Assembly (NCBI GenBank): GCA_024679645.1
Contig: JAIBCZ010000002.1
Span: 1-51,793 of the forward strand
Length of the DNA: 51,793 nucleotides
Direction: 5' to 3'
Source of the DNA: Amphritea sp.
Lineage (GTDB): Bacteria > Pseudomonadota > Gammaproteobacteria > Pseudomonadales > Balneatricaceae
Each line of letters starts with the position of its first letter. Positions within the stretch are counted from its first letter, which is position 1. Shown here in pieces: positions 3,295 to 44,532 of this stretch. The notes beneath the pieces were generated by a model. It was given only the letters and a program-made list of their open reading frames with translations, did not search any database and had not been told where the DNA came from. Both the position numbers and the translations under genes were made by a program.

Positions 3295-5985
3295 TCAGGT
3301 TGACTGACTGTGTTCATCGAGTTGCTGGCAGATGGTCTGTTTCAGGCTTTCGCAAAGCTCAGGATCAGTTATAGGCTGCCCGTCGTCATCATTAATGTAG
3401 AAAAGGTCTTCCACTCGCTCGCCAATACTGGTGATCATCGCTTTTCGTACATGGATTCCCAGGTCTACGAAGATGCCGCCAAGGCGGGCCAGCAGGCCGG
3501 GACGGTCGGGAGTTACTACCTTGACTACTGTTAGCTGTGTTGCCGGGTCAGTACTTAGGCTGACCTGAGTCGGGTAGGCAAAGAGTTTCATTTGGCGAGG
3601 TATTCGTCGCTGGATAATGGCCGGAAAATCATCAGGGTCATCCAGTTCTTCAATGAGATGGATACGGATCCGCTCAAGATAATCATCATCTTCCGGCAGC
3701 GGCAGGTTATCCTCGGTCAGAACGGTGTAAGTATTCAGGGCCTGGTTGTTATCGGCCACCATGATCTGGGCGTCCTGAATGGTCAGATTTAACTGGTCAA
3801 GCGCAGACGCTGTTGCTGCAAACAGGTTGGGCAGGTCTTGCATGTAGACGAACACCTCCGTCGCACCTTCGTAGGCCCTGTAAGAGGTCTTGCGGATCAT
3901 TACCAGTGGTAAGGTCGAATCGCCATGTTCAAGTATTGCCTGGGTTTGCCAGGCAATATGCTGAGGTTGTTCCCGCAGAAAGTAATCTTCGCCCAGCATG
4001 TTCCAGAATTGTTCAACTTCAGTTGAGCTGTGGCCTTTACGTTGTAATATGGCCAGTGATTCATTTTGCGTTTGTTCAATTCGATCGTCTTTATTGACGG
4101 GGTTTTCCAGTCCGCGACGCAGCGTGCGCTTTGTTTCAGTGTAGAGCTGGCGCATCAGGGTCGCACGCCAGCTGTTCCATAGGGTGTGGTTAGTCGCGTT
4201 AATGTCGGCCACAGTGAGGATATAAAGGTAATCAAGGTGGACAACGTCGCCGATCTGTTCCGCAAAACGGACGATGACATCCGGATCAGATATGTCTTTA
4301 CGTTGTGCCGTCATGGACATTAGAAGGTGGTTTTTGACCAGCCATTGAACCAAATAAGTATCCCATTTGCCTAAGTGATGTCGTTGGCAAAATTCGATGG
4401 CATCAGTTGCTCCCAGTTCTGAGTGATCACCACCACGGCCCTTGGCTATATCATGGTATAAGCCGGCAATATAGATAAGTTCAATCTTGGGCAGTTGATT
4501 CACCACCCGGTGGGCGATCGGGAACTTCTCCCTTTGATCCTCGTGACGGAACTGACGGATATTCTGAATTACTTTGAGTGTGTGGGCATCCACGGTATAG
4601 ATGTGAAAAAGGTCATGCTGCATCTGGCCGATGATTCGTCCGAATTCCGGCAGGTAAAGGCCGAGTATGCCATAACGGTTCATCCGTTTGAGTTCGGTGG
4701 AGACTCTTGCATCCTGGCGCAGTAGTTCCATAAAGAGCGATGTGTTGCGAATGTCATTACGGAAATCATCGTCGATTCGGTGTCGGTTGTTCCGGATTAA
4801 CCGAATGGTGGAAGCACGAACACCTTTGATTTTCTCATTTTGTGCCAGTAGAACAAACATCTCCAACATGGCGAAGGGTTTGTGCTCGAAGACGGACTCA
4901 TGGGAGACCCGAATGAAGCCGTTGTGCAGGTTGAAGCGATTATTCAGCGGGACAATAACCTGTTCTTCTTCGTGTCGTAGAATGACTTCATCAAAATACT
5001 GCAAAAGCATACCGTTAAACTCGGACATCGCTTTAGCGACCCGGTAATACTTATACATGAACTGTTCGACGGCCAGTGCACCGTTCTGGTCGGTGTAGCC
5101 AAAAAATTCCGCCAGTGTCCGCTGATGGTCGAATAGCAGGCGATCTTCGCGGCGGTTACAGAGCATATGCATTGCATACCGAATGCTCCAGAGGTACAGC
5201 TCACCTTTGTTCAGGGTATCCAGCTCTATTTCGGTAACAAAGCCGTGATCAACCAGGTCGCGAATATAGGTGGCTCCGAAATGTCGTTTGGCAACCCAGC
5301 CGATGGTCTGAAGGTCGCGCAACCCTCCGGGAGAGTTCTTTAGATTGGGTTCCAGATTGTATTCGGTATCGTTAGTCTTATCGTGTCGCCGTGATTGCTC
5401 GTCAACTTTGGCCAGGAAGAACTCTTTATCGGTCCAGGCTCCTTCAGAAGTGACCTTCAGGTACATCTGAATATGCAGATCTTCATTGCCCACCAGTGGA
5501 CGCGATTCAATGAGATTGGTGGCAATGGTGATATCGTTTTTAGCTTCCTCGTAACACTCATCCAGGGTCCGCACGCTGGATCCGATATCCAGATTAATAT
5601 CCCAGAGCAATGTGAGAAAGCCGCTGATGCTTTCTTGTACTTCGGCATCTTCGACATCATGAAGCAAGATCAGAAGGTCTACGTCTGAACGGGGGTGTAG
5701 TTCGCCGCGGCCATAGCCGCCGACAGCTATCAGGGACACATGTTGCTCTGAAGGCCATGTGAACAGGTTCCAGGCCTGGAGGAGAAGCTGGTCAACCAGC
5801 CAGGCCCGGCCATAAACCAGCTTGCGAATATCTTCACCATCTTTGAATCGCTGGTCCATGGTGTCCTGAGCGGACTTCAGGGCCTGCTTGAATACCGGTA
5901 AAGGTGAGCTGGATTCCGCTAGCGCGGCAGTAAATTCACAAGCTGAGAACAGTGTTTCATCAGCAGCAAAAGCAGTATTCGACAT
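3295..5985 (-). CDS. glnD: Bifunctional [protein-PII] uridylyltransferase/uridylyl-removing enzyme GlnD
   Basis: GlnD senses glutamine and adds or removes UMP on PII proteins (GlnB/GlnK), controlling glutamine synthetase and Ntr regulation. With the start at 5985 (MSNTAF) it has 896 residues, close to the 890 of E. coli. Domains in order: nucleotidyltransferase with GGYGRGELHPRSDVD (about residues 89-103, the GxDxD acid pair); PII-uridylyltransferase helical region with NLKNSPGGLRDLQT; HD hydrolase domain with LYHDIAKGRGGDHSELG; and two C-terminal ACT domains, the second containing VVTPDRPGLLARLGGIF. The ORF track start at 6012 is a TTG; 5985 is an ATG with GGGA upstream. It follows map on the same strand, a common gammaproteobacterial order. 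Confidence 0.97.
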   Translation of the reverse strand: MSNTAFAADETLFSACEFTAALAESSSPLPVFKQALKSAQDTMDQRFKDGEDIRKLVYGRAWLVDQLLLQAWNLFTWPSEQHVSLIAVGGYGRGELHPRSDVDLLILLHDVEDAEVQESISGFLTLLWDINLDIGSSVRTLDECYEEAKNDITIATNLIESRPLVGNEDLHIQMYLKVTSEGAWTDKEFFLAKVDEQSRRHDKTNDTEYNLEPNLKNSPGGLRDLQTIGWVAKRHFGATYIRDLVDHGFVTEIELDTLNKGELYLWSIRYAMHMLCNRREDRLLFDHQRTLAEFFGYTDQNGALAVEQFMYKYYRVAKAMSEFNGMLLQYFDEVILRHEEEQVIVPLNNRFNLHNGFIRVSHESVFEHKPFAMLEMFVLLAQNEKIKGVRASTIRLIRNNRHRIDDDFRNDIRNTSLFMELLRQDARVSTELKRMNRYGILGLYLPEFGRIIGQMQHDLFHIYTVDAHTLKVIQNIRQFRHEDQREKFPIAHRVVNQLPKIELIYIAGLYHDIAKGRGGDHSELGATDAIEFCQRHHLGKWDTYLVQWLVKNHLLMSMTAQRKDISDPDVIVRFAEQIGDVVHLDYLYILTVADINATNHTLWNSWRATLMRQLYTETKRTLRRGLENPVNKDDRIEQTQNESLAILQRKGHSSTEVEQFWNMLGEDYFLREQPQHIAWQTQAILEHGDSTLPLVMIRKTSYRAYEGATEVFVYMQDLPNLFAATASALDQLNLTIQDAQIMVADNNQALNTYTVLTEDNLPLPEDDDYLERIRIHLIEELDDPDDFPAIIQRRIPRQMKLFAYPTQVSLSTDPATQLTVVKVVTPDRPGLLARLGGIFVDLGIHVRKAMITSIGERVEDLFYINDDDGQPITDPELCESLKQTICQQLDEHSQST

Positions 5986-6025
5986 TGAGGGTCCCGTTAG
6001 AGGCCTGACCAAAAATGGGTCAGGC

Positions 6026-6796
6026 TTAGAAGTTTTCTTCCTTGCGTTTGGTTAAAACTTCACAGCCATCGGCGGTGACTAATAGCGTGTGTTCCCATTG
6101 GGCAGATAAACGTTTGTCTGTTGTTTCGACTGTCCAGCCATCCCGTTTAAGTAATTTTACGTGGCGTTTGCCTGCGTTAATCATTGGTTCGATGGTAAAG
6201 CACATGCCTTCCTGTAATTCGAAGCCGGTACCGGGTTTGCCATAATGAACAACCTGAGGTTCTTCATGGAAATCTTTGCCGATGCCGTGTCCACAGTACT
6301 CTCTTACAACGGAATAATGGTTGGATTCAGCCAGTTCCTGGATTACATGGCCAATATCGCCTAATCGAGCGCCCGGTTTAACCAGTGCTATGCCTTTATA
6401 GAGGCAGTCCAGTGTGATCTCGCAGAGACGTTCGGCATGGGGTGGTGCTTTACCTACGTAGAACATCTTACTGGTATCGCCGTGGTATCCGTCTTTGATA
6501 ACAGTGATATCAATATTGATAATATCGCCGTTTTTCAATTTCTTATCGTTAGGGATGCCGTGGCATACAACGTGGTTGACAGAGGTGCAGATCGATTTTG
6601 GAAAACCATGATAGTTCAGCGGTGCCGGGATCGCATTCTGTTCGTTGACGATATAATCATGGCAGATCTTGTTGATCTCTTCGGTCGTTACGCCGGGCTT
6701 TACAAAGGGCTCGATCATTTCTAATACTTCCGCAGCCAGACGGCCTGCGACACGCATTTTTTCGATCTCATCCGGTGTTTTGATAGTGATGCTCAT
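6026..6796 (-). CDS. map: Methionine aminopeptidase type I
   Basis: Removes the initiator methionine from nascent proteins. The 256-residue product has the five metal ligands in their family motifs: DINIDI (first Asp) and GYHGDTS (second Asp), GHGIGKDFHEEP (His), FTIEPMIN (Glu), and QWEHTLLV (Glu). Start 6796 (MSITIKTP) is chosen over the ORF-track start because it matches the normal N-terminus IKTPDEIEKMR. It diverges from rpsB, the classic map/rpsB arrangement, and is followed by glnD on the same strand. Confidence 0.97.
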   Translation of the reverse strand: MSITIKTPDEIEKMRVAGRLAAEVLEMIEPFVKPGVTTEEINKICHDYIVNEQNAIPAPLNYHGFPKSICTSVNHVVCHGIPNDKKLKNGDIINIDITVIKDGYHGDTSKMFYVGKAPPHAERLCEITLDCLYKGIALVKPGARLGDIGHVIQELAESNHYSVVREYCGHGIGKDFHEEPQVVHYGKPGTGFELQEGMCFTIEPMINAGKRHVKLLKRDGWTVETTDKRLSAQWEHTLLVTADGCEVLTKRKEENF

Positions 6797-38150: not shown

Positions 38151-40052
38151 CTAAATCATCTGCTTAGATTTAAGAAGTTCGATGACTTTGTCGGCGGCCT
38201 GTTCAGGTGTCATCTCTACTGTTTTAAGGTCGAGCTCCGGAGCCTGGGGTACTTCGTAAGGCGAGTCAATGCCGGTGAAATTTTTCAATTCTCCGCGGCG
38301 TGCTTTCTTATAAAGGCCTTTGACATCCCGGTTTTCTGCGACTTCAAGCGGGGTGTTTACATAGATTTCAATAAACTCTCCCTCTTCCAACATATCTCTG
38401 GCCATCTTTCTTTCAGCCCGGAAGGGTGAAATGAAGGATGAAAGTACGATCAGACCAGCATCAACCATTAGCTTCGACACTTCTGAGATTCGACGGATAT
38501 TTTCTACTCGGTCTTGATCGGTGAATCCCAGGTCTTTGTTCAGACCGTGGCGGACATTGTCACCATCCAACAGGTAGGTATGGTGTCCAGAGGCCAGTAG
38601 TTTTTGCTCCACCAGATCAGCGATGGTAGATTTGCCTGAACCGGAGAGTCCGGTAAACCAGATCACGCAAGGCTTCTGGCTTTTTAGTGTTGCCCGTACT
38701 TCTTTATTCACTTCAGTATGTTGAACGGTAATGTTTGTACTTCTGCGAAGTTCAAAGTTTATCAGGCCAGCGCCGACTGTGTTATTGGTCATCCGATCGA
38801 TCAGTATAAAGCTACCAGTATCACGGTTGGCTTTATAGGAATCGAAGGCTATCTCCTGGTCAATGCTGATATTGCATTCGCCTATCCCGTTCAGGTCTAG
38901 TTTCTTGGCCGCCAGGTGCTCCATCGTATTGACGTTCACCTGATGCTTGATATCAGTGATTGAGGCGGTGACAGTTTTGGTGCCGATCTGCATCAAGTAA
39001 GTACGACCTGGCATCAGTGCTTCTTCGTGCATCCAGATGATAGTCGTCTCGAACTGTTTACCGATAGAGGCAGGATGTTCGGCTGAGGTGATCATATCGC
39101 CGCGAGAGATGTCGATCTCGTCATTCAGTGTCAGGGTAATAGACTGACCTGCTACTGCCTGAGGAAGGTTGCCATCATAGGTTGAGATGGTAGCAACGGT
39201 GCTCTCTTTTCCAGAGGGCAGTGCGCGAATCTTGTCACCCGGTTTGATAACACCACTGGCAAGCTGCCCCGAGAAACCCCGGAAGTCCAGGTTTGGCCTG
39301 TTAACCCACTGAACTGCCATGCGGAATGGTTCTTTCTGCATGAGTTCATCATCAACCTGAACCGTTTCCAGGTAGCCCATCAGTGTAGTGCCGTGGTACC
39401 AGGTCATGTTGTTACTTGGCTCGGTGATGTTGTCACCGGCCAGTGCAGACATTGGAATAAAAGTGATCTTCGTAATACCGATCTGCTTTGCAAATTCGAT
39501 ATAGTCTTCTTTTATCTTGTTGAAGGTGCTTTCTGAGTAATCGACCAGATCCATCTTGTTGATGGCAACTACAACATGAGGGATACCGATCAAGGATGCC
39601 AGGTAACTATGACGGCGAGTCTGGGTAAGGATGCCGCGGCGGGCATCTACCATCAGAATTGCTACGTCAGCTGTGGATGCGCCGGTAACCATGTTGCGGG
39701 TGTATTGCTCATGCCCGGGGGTGTCGGCAACGATAAATTTACGCTTATCGGTTGAGAAGAAGCGGTAGGCAACATCTATGGTGATGCCCTGTTCCCGTTC
39801 GGCGGCTAAGCCGTCAACCAGTAGAGCAAAGTCGATATTGTCACCCTGGGTGCCAAACTTTTTCGATTCAGATTCTACCGCTGCAAGCTGGTCTTCAAAG
39901 AGAAGCTTTGATTCGTACAGCAGCCGCCCAATCAGAGTGCTTTTACCGTCATCCACGCTGCCGCAGGTGATGAAGCGTAGCAGGCTTTTCTGTTCGTGGT
40001 CTTTTAGGTATTGGACGATATCTTCGGATATCAGGTCTGATGAATGTGCCAT
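38151..40052 (-). CDS. cysNC: Bifunctional CysN-CysC: ATP sulfurylase GTPase subunit fused to APS kinase
   Basis: 633 residues combining two steps of sulfate activation. Residues about 1-445 are CysN: GTPase P-loop [10 protein letters not shown] (31-40), [19 protein letters not shown], and EF-Tu-like beta-barrel domains; with CysD it forms APS from ATP and sulfate at the expense of GTP. From about residue 455 it is CysC, APS kinase, with P-loop GLSGSGKS (468-475), the [16 protein letters not shown] segment and [10 protein letters not shown], giving PAPS. Its start overlaps the cysD stop by one base (TAATG) with GGAGG upstream, so the subunits are co-translated. Such fusions (also called NodQ-like) are common in proteobacteria. 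Confidence 0.97.
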
Positions 40053-41812
40053 TAGAAGTAGCCCTCCTGCTTTTTCTTCTCCATGGATGCGGCGGAATCG
40101 TGGTCGATCATCCGGCCCTGACGTTCAGATGTTTTCGTTAGCAGCATCTCTTGAATGATGGCTGGCAAGGTGTCGGCGTCAGATTCAACGGCACCGGTGA
40201 GCGGGTAGCAGCCCAGGGTTCTGAAACGAACGTTCTTCATCATGGGCACTTCATTTGGCAATAGAGGCATGCGCTCATCATCCACCATGATTAGCGTACC
40301 ATCCCGTTCAACTACTGGACGCTCTGCTGCAAGGTAGAGCGGTACAATGGGGATCTGTTCCAGATAGATATATTGCCAGATATCCAATTCAGTCCAGTTA
40401 GATATAGGGAATGCCCGAATTGATTCGCCAGGGCGCTTGTTGGCGTTGTAGTTTTTCCACAACTCAGGGCGTTGGTTTTTCGGGTCCCAACGGTGATTAG
40501 AGGTGCGGAAGGAGAATATACGTTCTTTAGCTCGAGATTTTTCTTCATCACGACGAGCGCCGCCGAAGGCGACATCAAATTTGTATTTATTCAACGCCTG
40601 CTTCAGGCCTTCTGTTTTCATAATGTCGGTATGAAGAGCCGAACCGTGGGTGAATGGATTTATATCTTTCTCAACCCCTTCCGGGTTCTTGTAGGTGATC
40701 AGCTCGACACCCAGGTTTTTAACCAGCTCATCGCGGAAAGTGTACATCTCGCGGAACTTCCAGCCAGTATCTACGTGCAGAAGAGGGAAGGGAGGCTTCG
40801 AAGGATGAAAAGCTTTCATCGCCAGATGTAACATCACGGCGCTGTCCTTGCCGATGGAATACATCATGACTGGATTGTCTGCTTTGGAAGCTACTTCGCG
40901 CATTATTTGAATGCTTTCTGCTTCCAGTCTCTGTAAATGTGTTAGTGACATCGTGGTCCTCACATGTGCCTGAGTTGAAACGTTTTCACCCTTTTGCGGA
41001 GGTTGTTCCGTCTGGGTACTGTGTATTGATGTAGCATAAGTCAACAGGGTAAGCTTTGACTGATTAGCCAGCCATTGTTGAATATCAGTGAGCTTTGTTA
41101 AGGGGCTGCTATGAAAAGAAAGGACTATGTCCGACTTTACCTGATTGCTCAGTAATTCAAGAAAGCGAAGTATGCTTTTGCTATCCGGTTTGCTGCTAGT
41201 TGCAAGCCAGTATAGTTTGCCTCTGAAATCCTGAGCGTAGATAAAGTAACCGTTCAGTCCTGCTTCTTTCTGTTCTGCAGAATGTGATAGAGAGGACATA
41301 CCCCCTTTAAGTACTTTACCTTTAAATATCCTGGCTTTAAGCGCTTTGCCGGTTGCATCATTATCGTTGCCATTAAGTTCGGGGTGATGCTGTAATAGCC
41401 ACTCTTTAACGGTTTTTATTTTTTGATGTGCTGTCGGAACAGTGATCCCCCAGTCCTTTAGGTACCGATTGATCGTTTTAGCTGATAGCTCATGGTGGTG
41501 AATACTAAACCACTCCTGAACCTGCTGGGTGCTCCAGAGTGTGTTCTCTGCAGGCGGGCTTGAAAGCATAAATTCAAGGCAGTTATTTTGAGAGCCGGGG
41601 CCGGACTGTTGCGTTTTAGGGCGTCCGCGTTTGCCGGTGTTAACCGCTTTCCAGCCGCCTTCTATAAAACATTTATGGGCTGAGATTATAGTTGGATTAG
41701 AAAGTCCGGTCTTTTGTTTTATGGTGGCAAGCGTTTCTCCGCTAAGACGCAGCTGTACCGCTTCTTTTCTTAGCTTGTCTAGTTCTTTTGGCGAAAGACG
41801 CTTACCGCTCAT
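40052..41812 (-). CDS. cysD: Sulfate adenylyltransferase subunit CysD with an N-terminal IS630-transposase-like DNA-binding extension
   Basis: 586-residue frame. Residues 288-586 are a complete Cys[17 protein letters not shown]-loop [43 protein letters not shown] and C-terminal QEGYF. CysD normally has about 300 residues, so the first 287 are extra. They resemble an IS630-family transposase: helix-turn-helix about 18-50 ([22 protein letters not shown]), GKRGRPK linker about 60-66, winged-helix-like region about 90-125 ([10 protein letters not shown]...[14 protein letters not shown]), and a DDE-fold remnant about 188-260 ([16 protein letters not shown], then [20 protein letters not shown]). 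There the acidic residues are absent: the usual LDN motif reads LSF. ATG 41812 has AGGA eight bases upstream and a good promoter; a second, stronger ribosome binding site marks the standard CysD start at 40951. CysD is certain; the origin of the extension is an inference. Confidence 0.9.
40949..40962 (-). promoter_or_regulatory. Internal ribosome binding site and start for free CysD
   Basis: On the minus strand TGAGGA lies five bases before ATG at 40951, which begins [13 protein letters not shown], the usual CysD N-terminus. This would give a 299-residue normal CysD from within the longer frame. No stop codon separates the upstream extension, whose last residues are VRTT. Whether both products are made is open. 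Confidence 0.7.
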
Positions 41813-41838
41813 TCTGAATGTCCTGTATAAGAATTGAG

Positions 41839-41867
41839 ATCATACAAAATTAACGGTATGCTGACAA
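41839..41867 (-). promoter_or_regulatory. Sigma-70-type promoter for the extended cysD-cysN/C operon
   Basis: On the minus strand TTGTCA, exactly 17 bases, then TATGAT preceded by TG. Predicted transcription start is about 20 bases before ATG 41812. This supports the long frame being transcribed from its own start. The divergent permease gene begins 143 bases away, so the same gap may hold a shared regulatory site; I did not recognise a CysB site. Confidence 0.65.
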
Positions 41868-41955
41868 ATATTCTTTGTTAAACATAATGTGTCTCGATTG
41901 GCTTGCTGTGAGATCTCTTTCAAGTTTGAATGACACTAATTAAATAAGTCGAAAT

Positions 41956-43722
41956 ATGGATTTTTCAGCCGGATTAACACTCTTTGTTCTCGTTTCGGTA
42001 CTGATGCTGCTGGTTTTTAGTCATATCGCCGCCGATATGGTGCTAATGGCAGCGATGGGCGTGTTAATTATCTTTAAAGTACTTTCACCTTCTGAAGCGC
42101 TGGTGGGTTTTTCAAACCCTGGTGTGATTACTATTGCTGCTTTCTACGTTATTGCTGCTGGTCTTAAAGAGACCGGTGCGGTTCGTTGGATCGGTCAACT
42201 GTTACTTGGTTTACCCGATACTGAGAGGCGATCATTGTTTAGGGTGCTAATGCCGTCGGCGCTATTAAGCGCTTTTATGAATAATACCGCAGTAGTGGCG
42301 ATGTTTATTCCAGCGGTTCAGGAATGGGCGAGACGCATTAAAATTCCAGTTTCTAAGCTTCTCTTACCTTTGAGTTACGCTGCTATTCTTGGCGGAACCT
42401 GCACTCTGATTGGTACTAGCACTAATCTGGTGGTTGATGGTTTGCTGCAGGCGGAGACAGGAGTCGCGCTGGGGATGTTTGATCTGGCGTGGGTTGGCGT
42501 GCCGGTGCTGTTAATAGGGGGAGGCATGATTGTTCTGTTGGCGCCTGTTTTGTTGCCAGACAGAAAAGGTGTGGTTGAACAGCTTGAGTCGGCTCGAGAA
42601 TATGTTGTTGAACTCATTGTAAATCCTGCGGGCCCTATCGTTGGGAAAACTGTTGCTCAGGCGGGCTTAAGACATCTTACCTATGGTTACCTTGTTGATA
42701 TTAAAAGGAGAGAGCAGTTAATAACGGCGGTATCGCCTGATATCGTTCTGGAAGCCGATGATGTGCTGGTGTTTATCGGTGCTGCGGAAAGCGCCCGTGA
42801 GCTTCGAGGGGTGCGGGGGCTAGTGCCTACGCATGATGATGTGGACAAGCTGGATATCGCTTTGCAGGAACGCTGTCTGGTAGAGGCAGTGGTTGGTCCT
42901 GAGTTTTTTGGTCTGGATCAGACTGTTAGAGAATCTCGGTTTCGAAGTCGTTTTCGGGCGGCTATTTTATCCGTTTGTCGGCAAGGCCATCGTCTGGATG
43001 GCAAGATAGGTGATATTCAGCTTCAAACGGGTGATACGTTATTATTGGAAGCCAGTGATGATTTCGTGAGTCAGTATCGTTCGCGAAGAGATTTTCTCTT
43101 GGTGAGTGCGCTGAATGAATCGACCCCGCCTGATTTTGCCAAAGCGCCTGTTGCCATCGGGACACTGCTTTTGATGGTGCTAGTGAGTGCGTCAGGTGTG
43201 TTATCAATTCTAGAGGCCTCCCTTGTTGCTGCGGGGGTTATGTTGGCAAGCCGGTGTGTGTCTGTATCCAAGGCCCGTCGTAATGTTGATCTGTCTGTGC
43301 TGGTGGTGATTGCGTCCTCATTTGCACTGGGTGCGGCTATGGTGAAAACGGGAAATGCCAGCATGATAGCAAATGGGTTGCTGTTTTTTGATGGTATAAG
43401 TCCCTGGCAGGTGCTGATTTTAATGTACCTGATAACCGTGATATTCACTGAATTAATCACCAATAATGCTGCTGCAGTGCTTATGTTTCCGGTCGCTATG
43501 GCTTTGGCTGATCAATTGGGTGTGAGCTATATGCCGTTTGTTATTGCGATTATGTTTGCGGCTTCTGCCAGTTTTATAACACCATTGGGTTATCAGACTA
43601 ATTTGATGGTATACGGGCCTGGAGGGTATCGTTTTACCGATTATGCCCGTTTAGGAATGCCGCTTAGTATAACTGCCGGTGTGGTATCGCTGTCTCTGAT
43701 TCCGCAATTCTGGAGTTTTTAA
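41956..43722 (+). CDS. SLC13-family permease with two RCK-C (TrkA-C) domains, probable sulfate transporter
   Basis: 588-residue membrane protein. N-terminal helices with the family motif GGTCTLIGTSTNLVVDGLL (about residues 150-170), a cytoplasmic insert of two TrkA-C-like domains (about 205-375; VVELIVNPAGPIVGKTVAQAGLRH and RCLVEAVVGPEFFGLDQTV), then a second membrane half with FTELITNNAAAVLMFPVAMA and PLGYQTNLMVYGPGGY. This DASS/SLC13 layout occurs in sulfate and other anion transporters. Divergence from cysD-cysN/C and position before cysQ argue for sulfate, but substrate is inferred. There is no clear ribosome binding site before ATG 41956, so translation may be weak or start elsewhere. 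Confidence 0.87.
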   Translation: MDFSAGLTLFVLVSVLMLLVFSHIAADMVLMAAMGVLIIFKVLSPSEALVGFSNPGVITIAAFYVIAAGLKETGAVRWIGQLLLGLPDTERRSLFRVLMPSALLSAFMNNTAVVAMFIPAVQEWARRIKIPVSKLLLPLSYAAILGGTCTLIGTSTNLVVDGLLQAETGVALGMFDLAWVGVPVLLIGGGMIVLLAPVLLPDRKGVVEQLESAREYVVELIVNPAGPIVGKTVAQAGLRHLTYGYLVDIKRREQLITAVSPDIVLEADDVLVFIGAAESARELRGVRGLVPTHDDVDKLDIALQERCLVEAVVGPEFFGLDQTVRESRFRSRFRAAILSVCRQGHRLDGKIGDIQLQTGDTLLLEASDDFVSQYRSRRDFLLVSALNESTPPDFAKAPVAIGTLLLMVLVSASGVLSILEASLVAAGVMLASRCVSVSKARRNVDLSVLVVIASSFALGAAMVKTGNASMIANGLLFFDGISPWQVLILMYLITVIFTELITNNAAAVLMFPVAMALADQLGVSYMPFVIAIMFAASASFITPLGYQTNLMVYGPGGYRFTDYARLGMPLSITAGVVSLSLIPQFWSF

Positions 43723-43752: not shown

Positions 43753-44532
43753 ATGTTCAATAATCAAGATATTATCGACCTGGCTAAACAAGCTGGCGCT
43801 GCCATCATGGAAATTTATCAGCGTGATTTTGCTATCTATGAGAAAAACGACGAAAGCCCGCTAACTGAAGCTGATTTAGCATCTCACCATTGTATTGTTG
43901 ATGCGCTAAATAAATTGACGCCAGAGATTCCTGTGTTGTCTGAAGAGTCGGGTGCAGATGAGCATCTGGATCGCATGACATGGCAGACATATTGGCTGAT
44001 TGATCCATTGGATGGCACCAAAGAGTTTATTAAAAAGAATGGTGAGTTTACCGTCAATATTGCTCTGATTGATCAGGGTAAGGCGGTATTTGGGGTGGTC
44101 TATGCGCCTGCCCTTGAGGTGGCTTACTGGGGTGATGCAGAGGGCGCTTTCAAAGAGAAAAGTGGCCAGGTTAAGCCTATCCAGGTGTCTGGTATTCCAG
44201 CTGATGGCGCGGTTTGGCGTGTTGTTGGAAGTCGTTCACACCAGTCTGATGAGTTTAAAGCTTTTGTAAAAGGTCTGCCGGCAACTGAAGTGGTCTCAAT
44301 GGGCAGTTCCCTTAAGCTTTGTCTCGTTGCTGAAGGCGTTGCTGATTTGTATCCGCGTCTGGGTTTGACCAGCGAATGGGATACCGCTGCCGCACATGCT
44401 GTTGTAACAGCAGCGGGTGGTAAGGTTTTGCAGTACCCTGAATTGACCCCTTTGCTTTACAACACAAGACCGGAGACCTTGCTGAACCCGTTCTTTATCG
44501 TTTGTGCTGATAAATCTGAAGCTTGGGGGTAA
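43753..44532 (+). CDS. cysQ: 3'(2'),5'-bisphosphate nucleotidase CysQ
   Basis: Hydrolyses PAP (left over from PAPS use) to AMP, relieving its toxicity. 259 residues of the inositol monophosphatase fold. Metal-binding motifs: PVLSEESG (Glu pair about residues 64-65), WLIDPLDGTKEFIKKNGEFTVN (Asp84, Asp87) and SEWDTAAAHAVV. AAAAGGA lies ahead of the start. It follows the permease by 30 bases, probably one operon. Grouping with cysD-cysN/C makes a sulfate uptake, activation and PAP-removal set. Confidence 0.96.
   Translation: MFNNQDIIDLAKQAGAAIMEIYQRDFAIYEKNDESPLTEADLASHHCIVDALNKLTPEIPVLSEESGADEHLDRMTWQTYWLIDPLDGTKEFIKKNGEFTVNIALIDQGKAVFGVVYAPALEVAYWGDAEGAFKEKSGQVKPIQVSGIPADGAVWRVVGSRSHQSDEFKAFVKGLPATEVVSMGSSLKLCLVAEGVADLYPRLGLTSEWDTAAAHAVVTAAGGKVLQYPELTPLLYNTRPETLLNPFFIVCADKSEAWG

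Follow-up and report, generated by a model that had tools for sequence, protein, structure and literature searches.

The second CysD of an Amphritea genome is fused, in a single open frame, to an N-terminal extension that descends from an IS630 transposase. This extension and its relatives have one origin, and have lost the catalytic acids; purifying selection maintains them, either fused to a second CysD or directly upstream of one, in a cluster for PAPS synthesis. We consider it likely that the product unites an autoregulatory transcription factor and an ATP sulfurylase subunit in one chain (a "trigger enzyme"), the dead-transposase front half probably being the switch of its own gene cluster in many marine, freshwater and soil bacteria. 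The gene is carried by the 51,793-nucleotide stretch of DNA analysed here (the window), whose features are given in Table 1.

Table 1. Position, strand and basis of the features discussed in the text
Feature	Coordinates	Strand	Basis or remark
cysNC (GTPase subunit fused to APS kinase)	38151..40052	-	overlaps the fused cysD stop by 1 base
Fused gene (IS630-transposase-derived extension plus CysD)	40052..41812	-	586 codons
CysD part, residues 288-586	40052..40951	-	own ATG at 40951
Extension, residues 1-287	40952..41812	-	profile, alignment, AlphaFold model
Linker, residues 263-287	40952..41026	-	poorly conserved, low-confidence in the model
GAGGA, Shine-Dalgarno of the probable internal start	40957..40961	-	junction codons, codon conservation
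DDE / RNase H-like core remnant, residues 153-262	41027..41356	-	catalytic acids lost
Second, winged HTH, residues 75-130	41423..41590	-	hhalign to IS630, model
GRP-type linker GKRGRPK, residues 60-66	41615..41635	-	conservation in 62 sequences
HTH1, residues 8-57, probable operator-binding domain	41642..41791	-	best conserved part, GLSxPTII..K.F..GGW
AGGA, Shine-Dalgarno of the long form	41821..41824	-	sequence
Sigma-70-like promoter TTGTCA-17-TATGAT	41839..41867	-	conserved in the genus
Conserved upstream block GACACATTATGTTTAACA...TTGTCA, overlapping the -35	41862..41893	-	candidate operator core TGTTTAACA at 41876-41884
Divergent permease of the citrate/Na-sulfate (SLC13-like) group with TrkA-C domains, probable sulfate importer	41956..43722	+	synteny
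cysQ-like phosphatase (inositol monophosphatase family)	43753..44532	+	synteny

The fused gene and its CysD part

The frame opens with an ATG at 41812, runs through its 586 codons with no internal stop and closes with a stop codon ending at 40052. This confirms, on the minus strand, that 287 residues precede a complete CysD in one frame, as a first-pass annotation had claimed; that annotation was right about the fusion and its transposase character, and missed the strand, the dedication of this second CysD to PAPS, the probable second start inside the frame and how widespread the fusion is. The CysD part scores above both curated cut-offs (505 bits against 396.6 for TIGR02039, and 539.6 against 413 for NF009214), and residues 289-586 cover the solved CysD 1ZUN_A from end to end in alignment (E=3e-148). 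As in ordinary CysD, the enzyme part is complete and the gene of the GTPase partner is adjacent; in contrast, ordinary CysD is a protein of about 300 amino acids without a DNA-binding part. In family terms, the fused protein belongs to CysD and descends from IS630 transposases without belonging to them. Assembly error and chance are excluded because the same in-frame extension was found in ten more Amphritea genomes, some of them from isolates (Amphritea atlantica DSM 18887 and A. balenae among others), as well as outside the genus.

Descent of the extension from an IS630 transposase

The IS630-like order of motifs proposed for residues 1-287 was found as described, with every quoted motif present: as in the IS630 and Tc1-mariner transposases (NF033545, DDE_3), an HTH is followed by a GRP linker, a winged HTH and an RNase H-like core. 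Single-sequence matches were weak, that to the IS630 transposase model NF033545 being below its cut-off (47.8 bits against 100, E=1e-12, residues 15-130) and those of HTH1 to Pfam HTH_29/HTH_28 below threshold. A profile of 62 extensions, however, matched intact multi-copy IS630 transposases with hhalign (P=100, E=3.9e-43, 255 columns) across the two HTHs and the greater part of the DDE core, and the same kind of profile picks up multi-copy live IS630 elements in other genomes. The AlphaFold model of the extension (pLDDT 87.5) presents HTH, linker, winged HTH, RNase H-like core and a low-confidence linker in this order, and Foldseek returned the mariner Mos1 transposase as top PDB match (E=7e-5), followed by TnsB and Pax paired domains. 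The idea of a domesticated transposase, for which a lack of structural match to HTH or DDE folds had been named as a refutation, is therefore upheld by profile and fold alike.

Loss of the acidic residues, also claimed beforehand, was borne out across the extensions: the first catalytic Asp is retained in one of the 62 extensions, the second site holds mostly His or Arg with no Asp among the residues listed, and the third, terminal acidic motif of the core is absent. Within the GRP linker of the same sequences, G63 is invariant and R64 nearly so. At residues 229-240 of the window protein, in the place of the IS630 LILDN, FHG or FHS is common (His in 29 of 62) and may constitute a new ligand site. 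With IS630 as the root, the tree unites the 62 extensions in a single clade (100/100), and a Gammaproteobacterial transposase (L162) branches beside it. The extension is consequently a catalytically dead descendant of an IS630 transposase, with a single origin. Unlike IS630 transposases, it has no catalytic acids, misses the C-terminal end of the core and is fused to an enzyme; moreover, the fusion occurs in one copy per genome with no matching IS ends nearby. An IS630 end of the type TATTAACCCGGCG was not found near the fused gene, its matches in the window being at chance level, and no terminal repeats could be defined around L162, the closest transposase. The IS630 transposases found on plasmids were only remote ones.

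Distribution, forms and selection

Among the 58 related genomes searched, extension and CysD share one open frame in 11 of the 18 from Amphritea; identity of the extension was 46-68% within this genus outside the window genome and 32-43% in other genera of the family. A scan seeded with the extension sequence alone returned 49 loci in Gamma- and Betaproteobacteria, of which 47 have the extension fused in frame to CysD and the remaining two (L095, L096) are truncated by a contig edge. On the gamma side they belong to Amphritea, Marinobacterium, Neptuniibacter, Pokkaliibacter, Zobellella, Oceanimonas and Granulosicoccus, and on the beta side to Azohydromonas, Achromobacter, Polynucleobacter, Caenimonas, Pusillimonas, Rhodocyclaceae and others. 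Long CysD proteins, the search for which had been suggested as a check, are indeed common in the family, with a CysD frame of more than 490 amino acids in 34 of 117 genomes. The selection test suggested at the same time gave dN/dS values of 0.09-0.32 for the extension in six Amphritea pairs, that is, purifying selection; the CysD part gave 0.01-0.02 in five of these pairs and had no replacement in the sixth. Within the extension, HTH1 showed the lowest nonsynonymous change. These values and the spread over two classes identify the extension as a maintained protein domain.

Three forms were distinguished. The first consists of long fusions of the window gene type. In the second, a standalone gene of about 252-261 amino acids lies directly upstream of cysD and cysNC, divergent from the permease (L156, L157, L158, L159, L167, and L068 with an uncertain start). 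The third comprises short fusions that lack HTH1 and keep the rest; their homology rests on profile comparison (P=97.5, E=5e-12), Foldseek of a short-type model having given weak RNase H-like matches. A stop codon between the two parts together with an unconserved extension had been proposed as the mark of a dying insertion; where a stop does separate them, the extension is still conserved as a gene of its own. The standalone forms nest among fused ones in both the tree rooted on IS630 and that rooted on assimilatory CysD, a pattern suggestive of a single fusion and later fissions; support is weak at some of the deep branches. For the same reason, and with the same reservation about deep branches, a standalone gene as the ancestral state is disfavoured. 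The fusion is apparently reversible, as some members have standalone genes or have lost the extension altogether, so that covalent linkage is not essential everywhere. In one Amphritea genome (G014) the extension is lost and a LysR-type gene, possibly a replacement regulator, stands in its place in front of cysD (L067, 4614-6613), where the junction leader CATGTAAGGATTACG is still recognisable. One Amphritea MAG (G007) has an incomplete extension and an additional copy of the permease gene immediately upstream of an intact fusion (L059, 2646-9299; L019), a tandem partial duplication that is either recent or an effect of assembly.

A cluster for PAPS supply

The fused CysD is a second copy and lies in a cysD-cysNC-cysQ-permease cluster. 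The ordinary cysD of the window genome (L064) is a frame of 310 amino acids accompanied by a cysN without APS kinase domain, and its assimilatory cysH is of the four-cysteine APS-reductase type. In six of ten Amphritea genomes (with cysD fused in five and unfused in G014), APS kinase occurs once per genome and in this cluster, and it is absent from the other four, which lack the cluster. This confinement indicates that the cluster supplies PAPS. Sulfotransfer_3 genes were present in 24 of the 34 family genomes with a long CysD frame against 25 of the 83 without one (Fisher p=8e-5, uncorrected). Since none was found in the window genome, which is incomplete, we can only infer that PAPS from the cluster is used for sulfation. 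At another locus (L053, 1507-2962), a Sulfotransfer_2 gene and a similar-looking P-loop gene lie downstream of cysNC. Two distantly related types of divergent permease occupy the same syntenic place (L038, L042, L053 and L160 versus L032, L051, L156 and L157), about 62-65% or about 34-36% identical to that of the window, as if the transporter had been exchanged and the regulator-enzyme kept.

A probable internal start at the junction

In the window, the last extension codons are GTG AGG ACC ACG, followed by ATG, which places GAGGA five bases ahead of the CysD start. The GTG AGG codons are invariant in the 11 Amphritea genes, whose synonymous sites are strongly diverged elsewhere; AGG stands at the junction in 11 of 11, against 9 of 356 among the Arg codons. 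A Shine-Dalgarno match of at least 4 bases was found in 34 of the 42 fused loci with a start codon there, compared with 16% of control positions. A start at the exact junction position is missing from 13 long-type loci (some with a start codon a few codons away), and nine of the ten short-type loci have no ATG at the junction. Retention of both signals in most fused genes suggests that free CysD is probably also made. On the basis of these signals, most long forms would probably make two proteins, and some lineages the fusion alone.

A candidate operator

The Amphritea gap between the fused gene and the divergent permease contains the conserved block GACA...ATGTTTAACA...TTGTCA-17-TATGAT, and three genomes (G000, G016 and G011) each contain a single copy of the longer pattern GACA-N3-6-ATGTTTAACA, at the fused-gene locus. 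In most of the other lineages a related site precedes the gene, whether fused or standalone, and a TGTTTAAY-like site lies ahead of the gene in both classes. Kinship among loci being ignored in all these counts, exact TGTTTAAYA was found in 18 of 51 non-Amphritea loci against 0.2 in shuffles, and TTTAAT in 17 of 21 beta loci against 7 of 96 upstream regions of other genes at the same loci, and in 20 of 25 gamma loci against 11 of 88. A further 18 of the 51 loci outside Amphritea differ from TGTTTAAY at 2 or 3 positions, and several of them have other TTAA-type inverted repeats. No enrichment of the site was found upstream of ten fusions without HTH1 or of nine cysD genes without extension. That the candidate operator tracks the presence of HTH1 fits putative binding of HTH1 there, and lends support to the early reading of the extension as a DNA-binding regulator. 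As a fossil IS630 end the site was rejected, because it has only TTAA in common with the ends of multi-copy IS630 elements, and in inverted orientation.

Discussion

PutA, NadR and BirA are trigger enzymes, that is, enzymes with a DNA-binding domain. The fused CysD likewise has enzyme and DNA-binding domain in one chain, and its gene lies beside a likely operator; unlike them, it acts in sulfate activation, derives its DNA-binding part from a DDE transposase and has an internal start for the bare enzyme. We know of no bacterial DDE transposase that became a regulator and was fused to a metabolic enzyme, and none was found in the papers searched, nor any description of a transposase-CysD fusion, in line with the first-pass statement that no described CysD of this type was known. 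The closest parallels are partial. TldR proteins are nuclease-dead repressors derived from TnpB and resemble the present case as bacterial transposon nucleases that were inactivated and exapted, with strong gene associations; however, they are RNA-guided and TnpB-derived, being neither DDE transposases nor fused to a metabolic enzyme (PMC13418256, citing Wiegand 2024). In fungal PAPS reductase A, a sulfur-assimilation enzyme has similarly gained transcription activity through an added segment, a transcription-activating tail, but this is a short activation peptide, involves no transposase and does not concern CysD (PMC4848566). Fusions of enzyme and regulator of this kind seem to constitute a family that has escaped description, occurs in many Gamma- and Betaproteobacteria and is probably annotated as plain CysD. 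Because standalone, fused-with-internal-start and obligate-fusion forms coexist, they make up a traceable natural series of domestication, fusion and fission, and the predicted operator offers a way to learn how cells control their supply of PAPS for sulfation separately from cysteine synthesis.

In the mechanism that we propose, HTH1 would bind the TGTTTAAY-type operator, which lies immediately ahead of the gene's own promoter in the region shared with the divergent permease, and would in this way likely autoregulate sulfate import and PAPS synthesis. The junction Shine-Dalgarno and ATG would likely allow one mRNA to yield both a small CysD and a long HTH-CysD. Since CysD and its GTPase partner CysNC associate in a complex, the long form could report the state of this complex, or ligands such as sulfate, APS/PAPS or nucleotides, to the promoter, and the transposase core, remodelled as it is at the second Asp, may be a sensor or dimer domain. 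The direction of control (repression or activation) and the benefit of covalent linkage belong to what we infer. Taken in full, this would make a sulfate-activation enzyme its own transcription factor, in a widespread family born of a single DDE transposase domestication, which would sense the state of sulfate activation through CysD and switch the PAPS-synthesis and sulfate-import cluster via the TGTTTAAY operator, with bare enzyme from the internal start; on this complete version our belief and our doubt are in balance.

DNA binding is not the whole function, given that the short-type fusions have neither HTH1 nor operator and keep the rest; in such obligate fusions the remaining part presumably acts on the enzyme and not on DNA. 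It might then be argued that the extension is in general an enzyme-side domain, which tunes assembly or activity of CysD/CysNC as a scaffold or allosterically, DNA binding being gone. The second HTH and core do persist there without HTH1, the domain being an obligatory part of the enzyme where the internal ATG is missing, and the 13 long-type loci with no start at the exact junction position point the same way. Nevertheless, HTH1 is the most conserved part of the long type, the candidate operator follows it, and the standalone form does without covalent linkage, so we regard this reading as unlikely.

We give somewhat less credit still to a real regulator whose fusion is incidental, the stop between two co-transcribed genes drifting neutrally, most of the CysD being translated from the internal start and nothing being added by the long form. 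This would agree with the junction signals kept in most long-type fusions and with the nested standalone versions, but the fused state predominates and persists across two classes, and several lineages have lost the internal start, which leaves the fusion as their only source of that CysD. An autoregulatory enzyme is also a far better account than a domain whose targets are still transposons, such as one that silences live IS630 copies by attaching to their ends: even if fusion and live IS630 copies coexist in some genomes (G425) and the operator has TTAA in common with the ends, this motif is short and inverted, and the synteny of the cluster and the operator at the gene's own promoter argue for local control, which makes such a role very improbable. 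Finally, a decaying IS630 insertion reading by chance into cysD would explain the sub-threshold transposase match and the lost catalytic residues, but its probability is negligible in view of the single copy, the terminal repeats not above chance in the window, and the conservation across classes and dN/dS values, which rule out chance read-through. A true chance read-through was seen elsewhere (L030 in G061, 4783-6138), as a CysD ORF of 451 codons in which the 155 residues before CysD are encoded antisense to the permease and are unlike the extension.
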